From positions 1 to 57,425 of the forward strand of contig JAADCS010000008.1 of NCBI GenBank assembly GCA_013154295.1: DNA of 57,425 nucleotides, read 5' to 3'. Below, one piece after another: positions 1,101 to 38,343 of this stretch (positions within the stretch are counted from its first letter, which is position 1; every line of letters starts with the position of its first letter). Under the pieces are notes generated by a model that saw nothing but the letters and a program-made list of their open reading frames with translations, did not search any database and was not told where the DNA came from. This DNA is from Thermotogae bacterium (GTDB lineage: Bacteria > Hydrothermota > Hydrothermia > LBFQ01). A program made the position numbers and the translations under genes.

Positions 1101-3359
1101 TTAAGGCAGCAGCACTTTCAAAACCTGCCTTCTACCATCCTCCCATCTTATCACAAAGAAGTATATTCCACCGGAGAGGTCCTTCAATGACACCTCGGAA
1201 TTAGCTTGGAGGTGTAGTTCCTTGATCCTACGGCCCGTAGGTGAGAATACGGCTACCTTGGCATCCGCTCCTTCGACCTGAAGTCTTCTACCGGTGATCT
1301 TTACCGACCCCTTCGCAATTCCTTCGGTCACGTTCAAAGAGGTATCCCTACCGACTATACATGTTCCCACACCACCGGAGACCACCAGCGCATAGGGTTG
1401 AGGTCCGTTGGGAACGTTATAACCTTTGACCTTTATAACGTACTCACCCCGACTGGAGTTCTTTATACGCACCAACTCCCACGTGTTAACTCTGTCGTGA
1501 GGTATGCTTCCATCGTTGGGGGTGAGGTTATCAGGGCCACTGGTTGGAGCGTTCCCTATGAACACTTCGGAAGAAGGTCCCTCCACCTTAAGATCTAGAT
1601 CGTTGACCAGGCAGGAGGAGGAGTTACAGTTCGTGCTAGCTGGATAATCGGTCCAGACGAGAACAATACGTGTCACCACGTGGGGGTTACATATTTCCAC
1701 CCGATAGATATGCTCCTCGCCTGTACTTATACCCGCCGTGTTATCCACGAACCATAGATGGGATTTACGAATATCTGAAGAGTCGGTCAAACTGGTCCAG
1801 TCGTCGTAGGGTGAAAGTTCCATAACGTTATCTAAAACAGGTATACCTGCCCCCTCGTTACCGTTGGGTACGGGGTTATCGGGACCGGGAGGAGAACCAT
1901 CGGTATCTCCATCACCGCTGGCAGGTACGGCGGAGGCCAGCATGGAAGCCTTTATCAAGGCAGCGGAAGGAGTATGGGGACCGCCAGGGGCATAACCGTC
2001 TTCGTAGTATTGACGAAGGAGCAGGGCCATTCCCGCTGCCGCAGGTGTGGCCATGGAGGTGCCGCTCATGACACTTATGCCACAGGAGGTGGTGTTGTCG
2101 GCCGAATAGGTGTAGTTTCCATGCACCAAGACATCAACGCTAAATCTTCCATCGGGATACTCCCCGTAGGCGCTCCAGGTCGTCTTCCAAGGTTGGGATC
2201 GATACATAGCAGCTACCGTTAGATCGTTTTTGGCTGAAGCAGGATCGGACGCAGCTCTTCTACATCCAGAGCTACAGCCCTGATCACCATGGTTACCGGC
2301 GGCAAAGACTACCAACATATCCGGGTTGTTCCACATGAAACGGTCTATGTCGCGGGAGACGGTATTGTAGTTGGAGGGAGAACACGTCCCGTAAGGTATA
2401 CAGATGTATCCCCAACTGTTAGTGTGGACACGCGCCCCCAAGGCATAAGCGTCGTTCAGAGTGGTGTAAAAGCTAGACGCACCGCCTAAGGGTTCTTGAG
2501 ATATGAGGCGGGCCTTGTATGCCATCCCCCTATATTGGAGGTTACTGGTTTGTTCATCGGTTCCACCTACGGCCGTTCCGGCTGTATGGGTACCATGCGC
2601 ACCGTTGGCAAATCCTCCCCCATCGTAGTCCATTAGCGCGATCACTTTAGATGATCCGTCTACAGTTCCGTTGAAAAAGCAGTGACTTGGATAGAGACCG
2701 TTATCGTTATGGCCTAAGATCTGACCTTCCCCGTGAATTCCAACCGACCAAATTATGGTGTCCGGGGAAGCAACTGCATCTACATCGGCGTATTGGTATA
2801 TCTGGTGCAAAAGAGCGTTCCGGTTGTTGAAAGCCATCTTGGGATACTGTGGCTCCACAACATACACAGCCGGATGACGTGCTATCTCTCGCATCTCCTC
2901 TGTGCTTAGATAGGTTTCGTGAAACGGTCCATCCTCACTCGTGGTCACTATCTCAATACCCATGTCTTTCAGTTTTTTCTCAACTTCGCCAAGGGCCTCC
3001 TTATCGTAGAGAAGGATCCTTACCTTATAACGACTTCCAGAACGTTCCGCACATGTTAAAACGGAGCTTAGATCGGGCGGAAGCTTATACTCCGGCAATA
3101 TGGGAGCGATACCCGAAACGAACTCACGATCGAGGATCTTAGGGAGCGCAGCCGAAGATGCCTTTACCACAAAGGCAAAGTGGGGTAGATAATCGTAGAA
3201 TCTTACACCTAATTTGGAGAGTTCCTCTTTCCATTGGGGAAGTATGGGACCGCGAAACTGCAATATGAAATATTCGCTCCTTTGAACCGCCTTCAAACTC
3301 TTACTTGCGGACAGAGGATGTCCGTTAAACCAGACGGTGGCAACGAAAACCTGCAGCAT
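1101..3359 (-). CDS. Secreted S8 (subtilisin-like) serine protease with T9SS-type-A-like C-terminal sorting domain
   Basis: NGAHGTHTAGTAVGG and MSGTSMATPAAAGMALL catalytic motifs; C-terminus VAVFSPTGRRIKEL...LSGGIYFFVIRWEDGRRQVLKVLLP. Confidence 0.9.
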   Translation of the reverse strand: MLQVFVATVWFNGHPLSASKSLKAVQRSEYFILQFRGPILPQWKEELSKLGVRFYDYLPHFAFVVKASSAALPKILDREFVSGIAPILPEYKLPPDLSSVLTCAERSGSRYKVRILLYDKEALGEVEKKLKDMGIEIVTTSEDGPFHETYLSTEEMREIARHPAVYVVEPQYPKMAFNNRNALLHQIYQYADVDAVASPDTIIWSVGIHGEGQILGHNDNGLYPSHCFFNGTVDGSSKVIALMDYDGGGFANGAHGTHTAGTAVGGTDEQTSNLQYRGMAYKARLISQEPLGGASSFYTTLNDAYALGARVHTNSWGYICIPYGTCSPSNYNTVSRDIDRFMWNNPDMLVVFAAGNHGDQGCSSGCRRAASDPASAKNDLTVAAMYRSQPWKTTWSAYGEYPDGRFSVDVLVHGNYTYSADNTTSCGISVMSGTSMATPAAAGMALLLRQYYEDGYAPGGPHTPSAALIKASMLASAVPASGDGDTDGSPPGPDNPVPNGNEGAGIPVLDNVMELSPYDDWTSLTDSSDIRKSHLWFVDNTAGISTGEEHIYRVEICNPHVVTRIVLVWTDYPASTNCNSSSCLVNDLDLKVEGPSSEVFIGNAPTSGPDNLTPNDGSIPHDRVNTWELVRIKNSSRGEYVIKVKGYNVPNGPQPYALVVSGGVGTCIVGRDTSLNVTEGIAKGSVKITGRRLQVEGADAKVAVFSPTGRRIKELHLQANSEVSLKDLSGGIYFFVIRWEDGRRQVLKVLLP

Positions 3360-3403
3360 CGTTAGTATTCTAAAGGTGTTTTATTCACACGGTGAATTGG
3401 ATT

Positions 3404-3841
3404 TCAGACAGCTTTAGCTCTTTCTCGTAGAAGATTTTCTTGGATTATGTGAGCTATCGTGATCTCTGAAAGAATTTCTTCAATGCGCGGCTGTAGACGA
3501 TTCCAAACGCTTCTAAGAACGCAGTCGGAGACCGAGAATGTACAACCCTTCTGTTCCCCCGGAATCAGGCATTTGGCGAGGCCATACTTACCTTCAATTG
3601 CCTCTATAACATTAAGTATGCTTATACTTTCGGGGGGAACGGCCAAAGTGTATCCACCTTTTTTGCCCCGTGTACTTTTTATCATACCCGCCCGCCTCAA
3701 CTTTATAAGGAGCTGTTCCAAAAAGTTCGGGGGTATCCTCTCCAATGAACTGATTTGGGGGACGCTTATAGGTTCCTCGTTCATGCCCACTCTCGCCAAC
3801 GCCTTGATGGCGTACTCAACCCTTAAAGTAAATCTCAACAA
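3404..3841 (-). CDS. Rrf2 family transcriptional regulator with three-Cys cluster
   Basis: RVEYAIKALARVG...IPPNFLEQLLIKLRRAGMIKSTRGKKGGYTLA winged helix; KCLIPGEQKGCTFSVSDC. Confidence 0.92.
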   Translation of the reverse strand: MLRFTLRVEYAIKALARVGMNEEPISVPQISSLERIPPNFLEQLLIKLRRAGMIKSTRGKKGGYTLAVPPESISILNVIEAIEGKYGLAKCLIPGEQKGCTFSVSDCVLRSVWNRLQPRIEEILSEITIAHIIQENLLRERAKAV

Positions 3842-3843
3842 GG

Positions 3844-3917
3844 AGGTGGCGCCGGGATTCGAACCCGGGAATAGCGGATTTGCAATCCGCCGCCTTAGTC
3901 CGCTTGGCTACGCCACC
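3844..3917 (-). tRNA. tRNA-Cys (GCA)
   Basis: Minus-strand cloverleaf GGTGGCG...GATTGCAAATC...GGGTTCGAATCCCGG CGCCACC, discriminator U; CCA not encoded. Confidence 0.95.
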
Positions 3918-3928
3918 CTGAAGATTTT

Positions 3929-3934
3929 ATTATA
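3929..3934 (-). promoter_or_regulatory. Putative -10 box TATAAT of tRNA-Cys/Rrf2 transcript
   Basis: TATAAT 11 nt upstream of the mature tRNA-Cys 5' end. Confidence 0.6.
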
Positions 3935-23221: not shown

Positions 23222-23295
23222 CAGGGCCGGAGGGACTCGAACCCCCAACCTGCGGATTTGGAATCCGCCGCTCTACCAAATTGAGCTACGGCCCT
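23222..23295 (-). tRNA. tRNA-Trp (CCA)
   Basis: Minus-strand cloverleaf AGGGCCG...GATTCCAAATC...GGGTTCGAGTCCC...CGGCCCT, G73; 3' CCA not encoded. Confidence 0.95.
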
Positions 23296-23418
23296 ACAAA
23301 AAAACTTCCACCCTCCCTTGCGGAAGGTATTATACGGTCGTTTTACATCGTGTGTGAAACCAAAGATAAAGAAGAATACCGACCCAAAAGATAAGGTAAG
23401 CTGCTATTAGATAGACCA

Positions 23419-36238: not shown

Positions 36239-36697
36239 CTACTGCTGACTTTTGATTCTCCTAACCTCTTCTAACATAGAGAGAACCGCACTCGCCGCTT
36301 CCCAACCTTTGTTTCCGAACTTTCCTCCGGCTCTGTTAAAACCCTGCTCCAAGGATTCAACCGTAAGAACAGCCAAACCCACGGGTTTCTTGATCTTCGT
36401 AGCCACCTCCAACAGAGATGAGAGAACAGCCACAGAGAGATGTTCCCAATGGGGCGTTTCCCCTCTGAGTATGCAACCTACAACCACAAAACCCTTATAC
36501 CTGTCCTCATCTCCCAGTATGGCGAGCATTTGAGGGAGTTCAAAAGAGCCGGGGGCATTCACCACCTCGTAGGTGTAGCCCCCGGCTTTTAATCTACCAA
36601 TGGCCCCCTCTCTCAACCTTTCCGTTACGACCCCGTTAGAGAGGGAGACCAGAACACATATCTTGCTCTCTTCTTTACTTTTGCTTCCCGTCGCCAC
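36239..36697 (-). CDS. ribH: 6,7-dimethyl-8-ribityllumazine synthase
   Basis: NAPGSFELPQMLAIL, GCILRGETPHWEHLS, PVGLAVLTVESLEQGFNRAGGKFGNKG. Confidence 0.95.
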   Translation of the reverse strand: MATGSKSKEESKICVLVSLSNGVVTERLREGAIGRLKAGGYTYEVVNAPGSFELPQMLAILGDEDRYKGFVVVGCILRGETPHWEHLSVAVLSSLLEVATKIKKPVGLAVLTVESLEQGFNRAGGKFGNKGWEAASAVLSMLEEVRRIKSQQ

Positions 36698-38267
36698 CTA
36701 AGTCGCTCCCCTCCGGCAGGAGAACATAGACCTCCACGCGCCTGTCCTTGGCAAGACCTTTACCTGTAGGTTCGAAGATGGTGTAGTTGGCCACTTCCTC
36801 AAACCTATCCTCACTGAGGTCGAACTGCCTCACCAGATACTCTTTCACGGCTAACGCTCTCTTCTTGGAGAGGAGTTCATTGTAGAAAGCCCCTCCTCTA
36901 CGGTCGGCGTGACCACGTATGACTACCTTGGCGTAAGGTTCCTTGGACAGGATCTCGCCCACCTTATCCAACTCCTTCTGGTACTTGGGCTTTATGATGG
37001 TCTTGTCGGTGTCGAAATAAACCACGGCCACCAGTTTGGGCTTACGGGAGAGTTTCTTGTAGAGTTTGACTTTCAAAACAGCGTCGGTAGTTAGATTCAC
37101 ACCTACATCTATGGGATGATAGTTCTCGTCATCCTTGGAGATGGTCAGTAGATAGTTGGAAGCGGGTAGGCTATCGTTGCGGTAGGTGCCGCTCTCATCC
37201 GTGGTGCCTTCGGTGGTCACCTTACCTACGACCTTCACCTTGGCGCCGCTTATCGGCTCCCCGGAAAGTGAATCCACCACTATCACCATGAGGGTTCTGG
37301 GTCCAAGCTCCTCAACTGCCTGAACTACGGCCGGGCCTCCACCAACACCCATCATAGAAGGACCTACGGGACCGTATATACGCTCGGCTATACGGGCCGG
37401 CGAGACGTGAGCGCCTACGAAAAGCTCCCAGTTCCACTCCCACTTTTCGGGATCGTCGGGGGAGAGGTAATACCTGTTGACGTAGTAGTTCATGGAGATG
37501 TTGGTACCGGCCGAGAGTACGAGCCCACCGTTGAAGAACCTGTAGCGCAGCATCGGCGTAGCGAACAGATAGTCGCTATTAAAGGATATAGGACCGTAAT
37601 ACTTCAGCTCAAAACCGCTCTCCAGATCGTAGTAGGTAGTGAATATGCCAAAGCCCACATAGAGAGGATTATCCGCCAGACCGCCCTTTTTGGTATCTAC
37701 GTTGTATCCGAAGCCCAAAGCGAGGTTTGCCAGAAGACGGGTAGACCATTGCTCACTTATGAAATCATATCCACCGGAAACGCCGAGTCGTGCCCCCAAG
37801 AGACCCTCACGCACTTTGAAAGAATCAACGTAGGTACCAACACGTATAGGCCCCTTCTGGGTTTCTCCTACAGGTACTAACAAGCTCAAGAGAGCGGAAA
37901 TACCCCAGTTTCTTTTTCCTATGAACTGGTATTTGGCTCCAAGCTCAAAGTCCCTCATGCCACCGAACCAACGGTCGTCGCGGGTAGTGTCGTCCAACTG
38001 CCCTTTATTTAACCAGTTGATACCTTTAAGCGTGGCGTAGAGTTCCAAGTTACGGACGGGTACTGTGTTTATGGAGCCCCAACCTAAAAGAAAATCCTGT
38101 ATACCGTAAGGTTGGCTCCATATCTTCTCCGCGTATATGGTGGTTTCCAGATAGTTTATATAACCACCGCTTACAAGTTTTTCCGTGGAGGCTCTCCAAT
38201 CAAAAACGTCAAAATAACCGCTTGCCCCCGTATTGGATAGGTAGCTAACGAGCATCAGCATGGTCAT
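36675..38267 (-). CDS. OmpA-family outer membrane protein with N-terminal barrel and carboxypeptidase-regulatory-like domain
   Basis: C-terminal VVIRGHADRRGGAFYNELLSKKRALAVKEYLV...DRRVEVYVL; ISGAKVKVVGKVTTEGTTDESGTY. Confidence 0.9.
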   Translation of the reverse strand: MTMLMLVSYLSNTGASGYFDVFDWRASTEKLVSGGYINYLETTIYAEKIWSQPYGIQDFLLGWGSINTVPVRNLELYATLKGINWLNKGQLDDTTRDDRWFGGMRDFELGAKYQFIGKRNWGISALLSLLVPVGETQKGPIRVGTYVDSFKVREGLLGARLGVSGGYDFISEQWSTRLLANLALGFGYNVDTKKGGLADNPLYVGFGIFTTYYDLESGFELKYYGPISFNSDYLFATPMLRYRFFNGGLVLSAGTNISMNYYVNRYYLSPDDPEKWEWNWELFVGAHVSPARIAERIYGPVGPSMMGVGGGPAVVQAVEELGPRTLMVIVVDSLSGEPISGAKVKVVGKVTTEGTTDESGTYRNDSLPASNYLLTISKDDENYHPIDVGVNLTTDAVLKVKLYKKLSRKPKLVAVVYFDTDKTIIKPKYQKELDKVGEILSKEPYAKVVIRGHADRRGGAFYNELLSKKRALAVKEYLVRQFDLSEDRFEEVANYTIFEPTGKGLAKDRRVEVYVLLPEGSDLGGDGKQK

Positions 38268-38270
38268 AAG

Positions 38271-38343
38271 TGCCCCGCGAGGGACTCGAACCCCCGACCC
38301 GCGGATTAAGAATCCGCTGCTCTACCGTCTGAGCTAGCGGGGC
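38271..38343 (-). tRNA. tRNA-Lys (CTT)
   Basis: Minus-strand cloverleaf GCCCCGC...GATTCTTAATC...GGGTTCGAGTCCC...GCGGGGC, A73; CCA not encoded. Confidence 0.95.

Follow-up and report, generated by a model that had tools for sequence, protein, structure and literature searches.

Transfer RNA Genes That Run into Start Codons in Candidate Division WOR-3: A Probable Bacterial Analogue of Mitochondrial tRNA Punctuation

In the uncultured bacteria of the WOR-3 group, roughly one-third to one-half of the tRNA genes run nearly straight into the start codon of a protein-coding gene. The comparative evidence presented below suggests that cleavage at the 3' end of these tRNAs probably makes leaderless mRNAs, which would constitute a bacterial analogue of the tRNA punctuation of mitochondria. 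No account of leaderless mRNAs arising from bacterial tRNA 3' processing was found in the open-access literature that was searched.

The tRNA-Cys/rrf2 Locus and the Other tRNA Genes of the Window

The window, i.e., the whole stretch of 57,425 nucleotides that was analysed, contains three tRNA genes, all of them on the minus strand. The first of these, for tRNA-Cys(GCA) (3844..3917; ARAGORN 3842-3917, Rfam RF00005 3844-3917), is preceded at a distance of 11 nt by a -10 element, TATAAT (3934-3929), and it reads from GGTGGCG at 3917 to CGCCACC and the discriminator U at 3844. A trailer of 2 nt, CC (3842..3843), within or beside which the putative cut site would lie, is then followed by two TTG triplets (3841-3839 and 3838-3836), and the coding sequence from 3841 opens TTG TTG AGA TTT. 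The open reading frame (3404..3841, minus strand) encodes a regulator of the Rrf2 family (Pfam PF02082, E=3.7e-36; TIGR00738 above cut-off), which scores below all of the equivalog cut-offs for the Fe-S sensors IscR, NsrR, and RirA, and which carries three Cys residues spaced CX8CX6C. Hence, the sequence-only reading of this locus, which had placed the discriminator at 3844 with the start of an Rrf2 gene 2 nt further on, the TATAAT 11 nt ahead of the tRNA, and no CCA in the tRNA gene (CC and then UUG follow the discriminator), was borne out by direct reading, ARAGORN and Pfam. The 5' end of the processed rrf2 mRNA is predicted to lie at 3843, or at 3841 if the cut falls after the CC. It was also observed that the 3' end of the tRNA-Cys together with its trailer (3840-3848, minus strand) reads CACCTCCTT, which is letter for letter the usual 3' tail of 16S rRNA; this match is probably due to chance. 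The next gene downstream of rrf2, for an S8 protease (1101-3359, minus strand), has a TAGAAT of its own 7 nt before its ATG (3360-3375), which suggests that it forms a leaderless unit by itself, outside any Rrf2 operon.

The tRNA-Cys gene precedes an Rrf2 ortholog in all eight sampled genomes of the GTDB family (named relatives are metagenome-assembled genomes of candidate division WOR-3), and a TATAAT is found at a similar position before the tRNA in each of them. The first TTG is retained in all eight, 1-2 nt past the discriminator (in G005 the spacing is 1 nt by eye, the acceptor pairing made by the script being one base off), while the codon after it varies (TTG, TTA, TTC, GTA or CTA). No in-frame ATG, GTG or TTG is present upstream of it in any of the eight genomes, even though the reading frame continues across the tRNA without a stop. 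Because the first TTG is conserved while the next codon changes, and there is no in-frame start codon upstream, comparison of these sequences identifies 3841 as the start of the Rrf2 gene. The second TTG (3838) was ruled out, conservation being limited to the first, and a start within the tRNA was ruled out by the missing upstream start codons.

The claim that all three tRNAs of the window share this layout also held. The gene for tRNA-Trp(CCA) (23222..23296, minus strand; discriminator 23222) has the trailer TTT, and the ATG of rpmG, encoding ribosomal protein L33 (23051..23218, minus strand), follows after 3 nt without a Shine-Dalgarno (SD) sequence. This pair is also present in a congener (G004) and in a member of another family of the order (G009), whereas in a more distant genome of the same class (G018) the ATG follows the tRNA-Trp at 14 nt with a GGGGGAG stretch before it. 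The gene for tRNA-Lys(CTT) (38271..38343, minus strand; discriminator A at 38271; tRNA calls including Rfam) has the trailer CTT, and the ATG of a gene for an OmpA-family outer membrane protein (36675..38267, minus strand) follows after 3 nt by hand (2 nt by the script); this pair is shared with the congener.

Genome-Wide Excess of tRNA-Abutting Open Reading Frames

Distances from tRNA genes to the following open reading frame were determined with the same gene-calling script in the home genome (G000), in G004, G009 and G018, in a further genome of the phylum (G040), and in one Ruminococcus and one Sulfurovum genome as unrelated controls. Where automatic pairing can extend the acceptor stem, these distances may be wrong by about 1 nt, and TTG starts located in T-rich trailers are prone to over-calling unless they are conserved. 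A coding frame begins 0-9 nt after the discriminator for 13/42 tRNAs in the home genome, 17/47 in G004 and 20/42 in G009; outside the order, the same class contains 4/44 tRNAs in G018, 2/30 in G040, 1/32 in Ruminococcus and 0/29 in Sulfurovum. Two short ribosomal genes that are missed by the codon score, those for L28 (1 nt) and L33 (3 nt), lift the count for the home genome from 13 to 15. Upon comparing G000 and G009 with the two unrelated genomes, Fisher's test gives 1.5e-8. The genome-wide check of tRNA-to-start distances that had been proposed for this locus thus yields a clear excess at 0-9 nt, and it is confirmed that the layout is far above chance and above the control genomes.

In one family (f3), a wider scan of 41 genomes for a T-arm pattern followed by ATG was confounded by a T-arm-like motif located between genes. 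Among the matches listed, the ATGs peak at 8-15 nt in four other families of the class, and for this reason the very tight spacing seems to be special to the present order, although the layout could also extend beyond it, e.g., to leaderless-rich phyla such as Deinococcota. In G012, G017, G025, and G028, many ATGs have the T-arm-like motif GGGTTCAA(A/T)TCC some 20-45 nt ahead of them, in many cases with AAGGAGG after the motif, and there are 37-89 matches per genome as against roughly 4-16 elsewhere. Most of these matches do not resemble tRNAs, and the motif may represent a regulatory element or a repeat of intergenic regions.

The abutting starts are judged to be real, because the orthologs of G000 and G004 align from residue 1, including those that start with TTG, and because Pfam domains begin a few residues after the start in NDK, L31, L28, the HMGL-like protein, PRPP synthase and GcvP. 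Further genes found in this position encode NuoH, a MurA-type enzyme, MnmA, a glutamate-racemase-like protein, GatC, a PurB-like lyase, TsaE and OmpA-family protein. As separate observations, tRNA-Gln(ttg) stands directly before gatC, which encodes subunit C of the Glu-tRNA-Gln amidotransferase (L019:1242-1499), and on L024 a tRNA-Arg(cct) lies 7 nt past a tmRNA.

Start Signals and the Leaderless Setting

Judged from its start regions, this lineage is rich in leaderless genes. Among genes at the head of a unit, a -10 element ends 5-10 nt before the ATG in 44/77 cases in G000 and 56/85 in G009, compared with 0/77 and 13/85, respectively, when the anchor was moved by 40 nt as a control, and SD matches are concentrated in operon-internal genes. 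Elements of the -10 type are found before most of the tRNAs as well as before many coding sequences, and genome-wide the spacing from -10 to tRNA peaks at 9-12 nt. The spacing from -10 to ATG would put the 5' end of the mRNA at about the start codon, which is the same geometry that removal of an abutting tRNA would leave.

At the 50 abutting starts of G000, G004, and G009, no SD match of at least 5 nt and no -10 element of their own (TANANT at the right spacing) was detected, whereas one or the other is present in 128/272 operonic ATG genes. These counts agree with the earlier claim that the downstream gene has neither an SD nor a second promoter, and the -10 before the tRNA provides comparative evidence for the companion claim of a single promoter ahead of the tRNA, from which the two would be cotranscribed. 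Use of UUG is also enriched at the abutting starts (7/13 and 9/20, vs. 25/171 and 29/137 for starts led by a -10).

The best-surviving alternative, which we nevertheless regard as unlikely, is that these operons are simply compact, so that a tRNA and a coding sequence are cotranscribed and lie close by chance, with SD-independent initiation on RNA that is uncut or cut differently, and with no link to tRNA 3' cleavage. It is in keeping with this explanation that coding sequences, too, are frequently separated by only 0-9 nt (47/268 in G000) and that about half of the operonic ATG genes have neither an SD nor a -10. However, in G000 and G009 together, the ratio of gaps of 0-9 nt to gaps of 10-29 nt is 33:3 after tRNAs but 87:79 between same-strand coding sequences (p=4e-6), and only after tRNAs is there a depletion of the 10-29 nt class, the spacing that would accommodate an SD leader. 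In addition, the abutting genes have no upstream open reading frame for translational coupling, and a folded tRNA would occupy the upstream site of the ribosome. A promoter inside the tRNA gene, giving rise to a separate and ordinary leaderless mRNA, is very unlikely: a -10 immediately ahead of the ATG is a frequent feature of genes here, and some of the tRNA-to-gene gaps of at least 30 nt contain such an element (4/11 in G000), but none of the 50 abutting starts has one. The suggestion that tRNA 3' processing may be a second route to leaderless mRNA gains comparative support in a lineage in which leaderless genes are common.

Turnover of the Genes That Follow tRNAs

The genes downstream of tRNAs are mostly housekeeping genes, and they differ between families. 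By sequence comparison, only two pairs, viz. tRNA-Trp with L33 and tRNA-Leu(taa) with a small DUF4321-like protein, are common to both families, and the gene for PRPP synthase stands directly behind tRNA-Ser(cga) in one of the families but behind tRNA-Ala(tgc) in the other. Since the pairs change between families while the layout stays, selection seems to favour the presence of some tRNA at the 5' edge and not a particular tRNA-gene pair.

The least probable of the alternatives is that the Rrf2 protein senses cysteine or Fe-S status and controls the tRNA-Cys unit: the three Cys residues are conserved in the eight orthologs, the pair is kept through the family, and a few other pairs look thematic (tRNA-Gln with gatC, tRNA-Gly with mnmA), but in G009 the tRNA-Cys abuts an HMGL-like gene in place of rrf2, most other pairs are without a theme (e.g., NuoH, MurA-type, OmpA), and by eye the upstream regions of the eight units share only the -10, with no operator-like block. 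The cysteine/Fe-S link that had been proposed for the locus is unsupported by these observations and by the separate -10 of the gene beside rrf2, and it was set aside as the main explanation on the strength of the G009 partner and the upstream regions.

tRNA 3' Ends and the Processing Nuclease

The CCA end is encoded in only 1/48 tRNAs, and 43/48 and 46/47 trailers have a U as their first or second nucleotide (+1 or +2). A U within 2 nt stimulates the RNase Z of B. subtilis about 200-fold (PMC10100781), and the U-bearing trailers are thus as expected of RNase Z-type substrates. Some observations count against the reading that tRNA 3' cleavage makes leaderless mRNA. The tRNA-Cys of the home genome has CC, not U, at +1/+2, and the genus of this genome yields only weak metallo-beta-lactamase matches and no convincing RNase Z. 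The model for canonical RNase Z, TIGR02651, has no match in the home genome (which is 93% complete, so that the gene may simply be missing from the assembly) and none above cut-off in the 21 genomes searched, and a convincing canonical enzyme was found in none of G000, G009, and G018, though almost no tRNA encodes CCA. Thus, RNase Z, which had been named as the cutting enzyme, is a doubtful candidate. Matches to Pfam Lactamase_B_2 in the home genome consist of a UPF0173-like fragment, cut off by the end of its contig, and a beta-CASP-like protein of 441 aa (L362), which is the only complete metallo-beta-lactamase protein seen there. A 237-aa metallo-beta-lactamase protein was ruled out as the RNase Z, full-length matches to it being present in just 5/41 genomes. 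Cleavage of tRNA 3' ends without an obvious RNase Z has been published for Propionibacterium acnes (PMC3848588). As a further feature of these 3' ends, in about half of the tRNAs of G000 and G004 the acceptor stem is followed, no more than 10 nt away, by at least four T in a row, and the tRNA hairpin together with this U-tract may act as a terminator, which would be partial where a gene follows.

Proposed Mechanism

We infer that many tRNA genes in this WOR-3 order cap the 5' ends of operons in a removable manner. A single promoter, whose -10 lies some 11 nt ahead of the tRNA, would produce a tRNA-mRNA cotranscript, and tRNA 3'-end maturation would cut this at or just after the discriminator, after which the released tRNA would need addition of CCA. 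The downstream product would be a 5'-monophosphate mRNA with its start codon (AUG, GUG and often UUG) 0-9 nt from the 5' end, and it could be translated by the leaderless route that these cells already use widely. Before cleavage, the RNA should serve poorly as a message, since the tRNA fold would lie in the upstream ribosome site. With uncut RNA poor and cut RNA leaderless, maturation of the tRNA and activation of the mRNA would be a single event. More tentatively, it is quite possible that this bacterial order makes leaderless housekeeping mRNAs generally by tRNA excision, in one step with tRNA maturation, by means of a tRNA 3' nuclease other than canonical RNase Z.

Comparison with Known Systems

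The closest parallel is the tRNA punctuation model of animal mitochondria, which reportedly was put forward by Ojala, Montoya and Attardi in 1981. In both systems tRNAs abut open reading frames at 0 to a few nt, excision of the tRNA is taken to create the 5' end of the mRNA, and the mRNAs are leaderless in mitochondria and would be so here. However, in mitochondria tRNAs flank genes on both sides within long polycistronic transcripts that lack internal promoters, whereas here most tRNAs and many coding sequences have a -10 before them, the punctuation is on the 5' side only and involves only a third to a half of the tRNAs, and coding sequences also use their own -10 or SD. By analogy, the WOR-3 layout would work like mitochondrial punctuation but is not a member of it, because its tRNAs have their own promoters and stand only on the 5' side. 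Among bacterial tRNA-mRNA operons, that of E. coli (thrU-tyrU-glyT-thrT-tufB) resembles the present units in having tRNA and protein genes side by side on one strand and cotranscribed, as is predicted here, but in the E. coli region that was read tufB starts 114 nt after thrT, which leaves room for a leader, and there is none here.

Leaderless genes whose 5' ends derive from transcription start sites, with a -10 adjacent to the open reading frame, have been described for Deinococcus-Thermus (PMC12340547) and in a survey of bacteria (PMC3160421), neither of which mentions tRNA (0 occurrences). Leaderless translation with a TANNNT just upstream of the start is common in the present lineage too, but the abutting genes are without a -10 of their own, and their 5' ends would come from RNA cleavage. 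Lastly, MazF is cited in PMC3848588 as making leaderless mRNAs in E. coli by cleavage; as far as it is presented there, it is similar in that a leaderless mRNA arises from the cutting of a longer RNA, but it is a stress toxin that cuts in leaders, in contrast to the constitutive maturation of tRNA proposed here.

If the proposed mechanism is correct, tRNA punctuation would not be solely mitochondrial but would have emerged, by what seems to be convergence, in bacteria with leaderless translation, and these bacteria would possess a second, processing-based source of leaderless mRNAs. The mechanism predicts 5'-monophosphate messages and UUG starts that form part of the tRNA trailer, and it would point to a non-canonical tRNA 3' nuclease. 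It would further illustrate what governs gene order when SD leaders can be dispensed with, and the expression of genes such as those for L28, L33, L31, NDK, the MurA-type enzyme, and GatC would be tied to the maturation of tRNAs.
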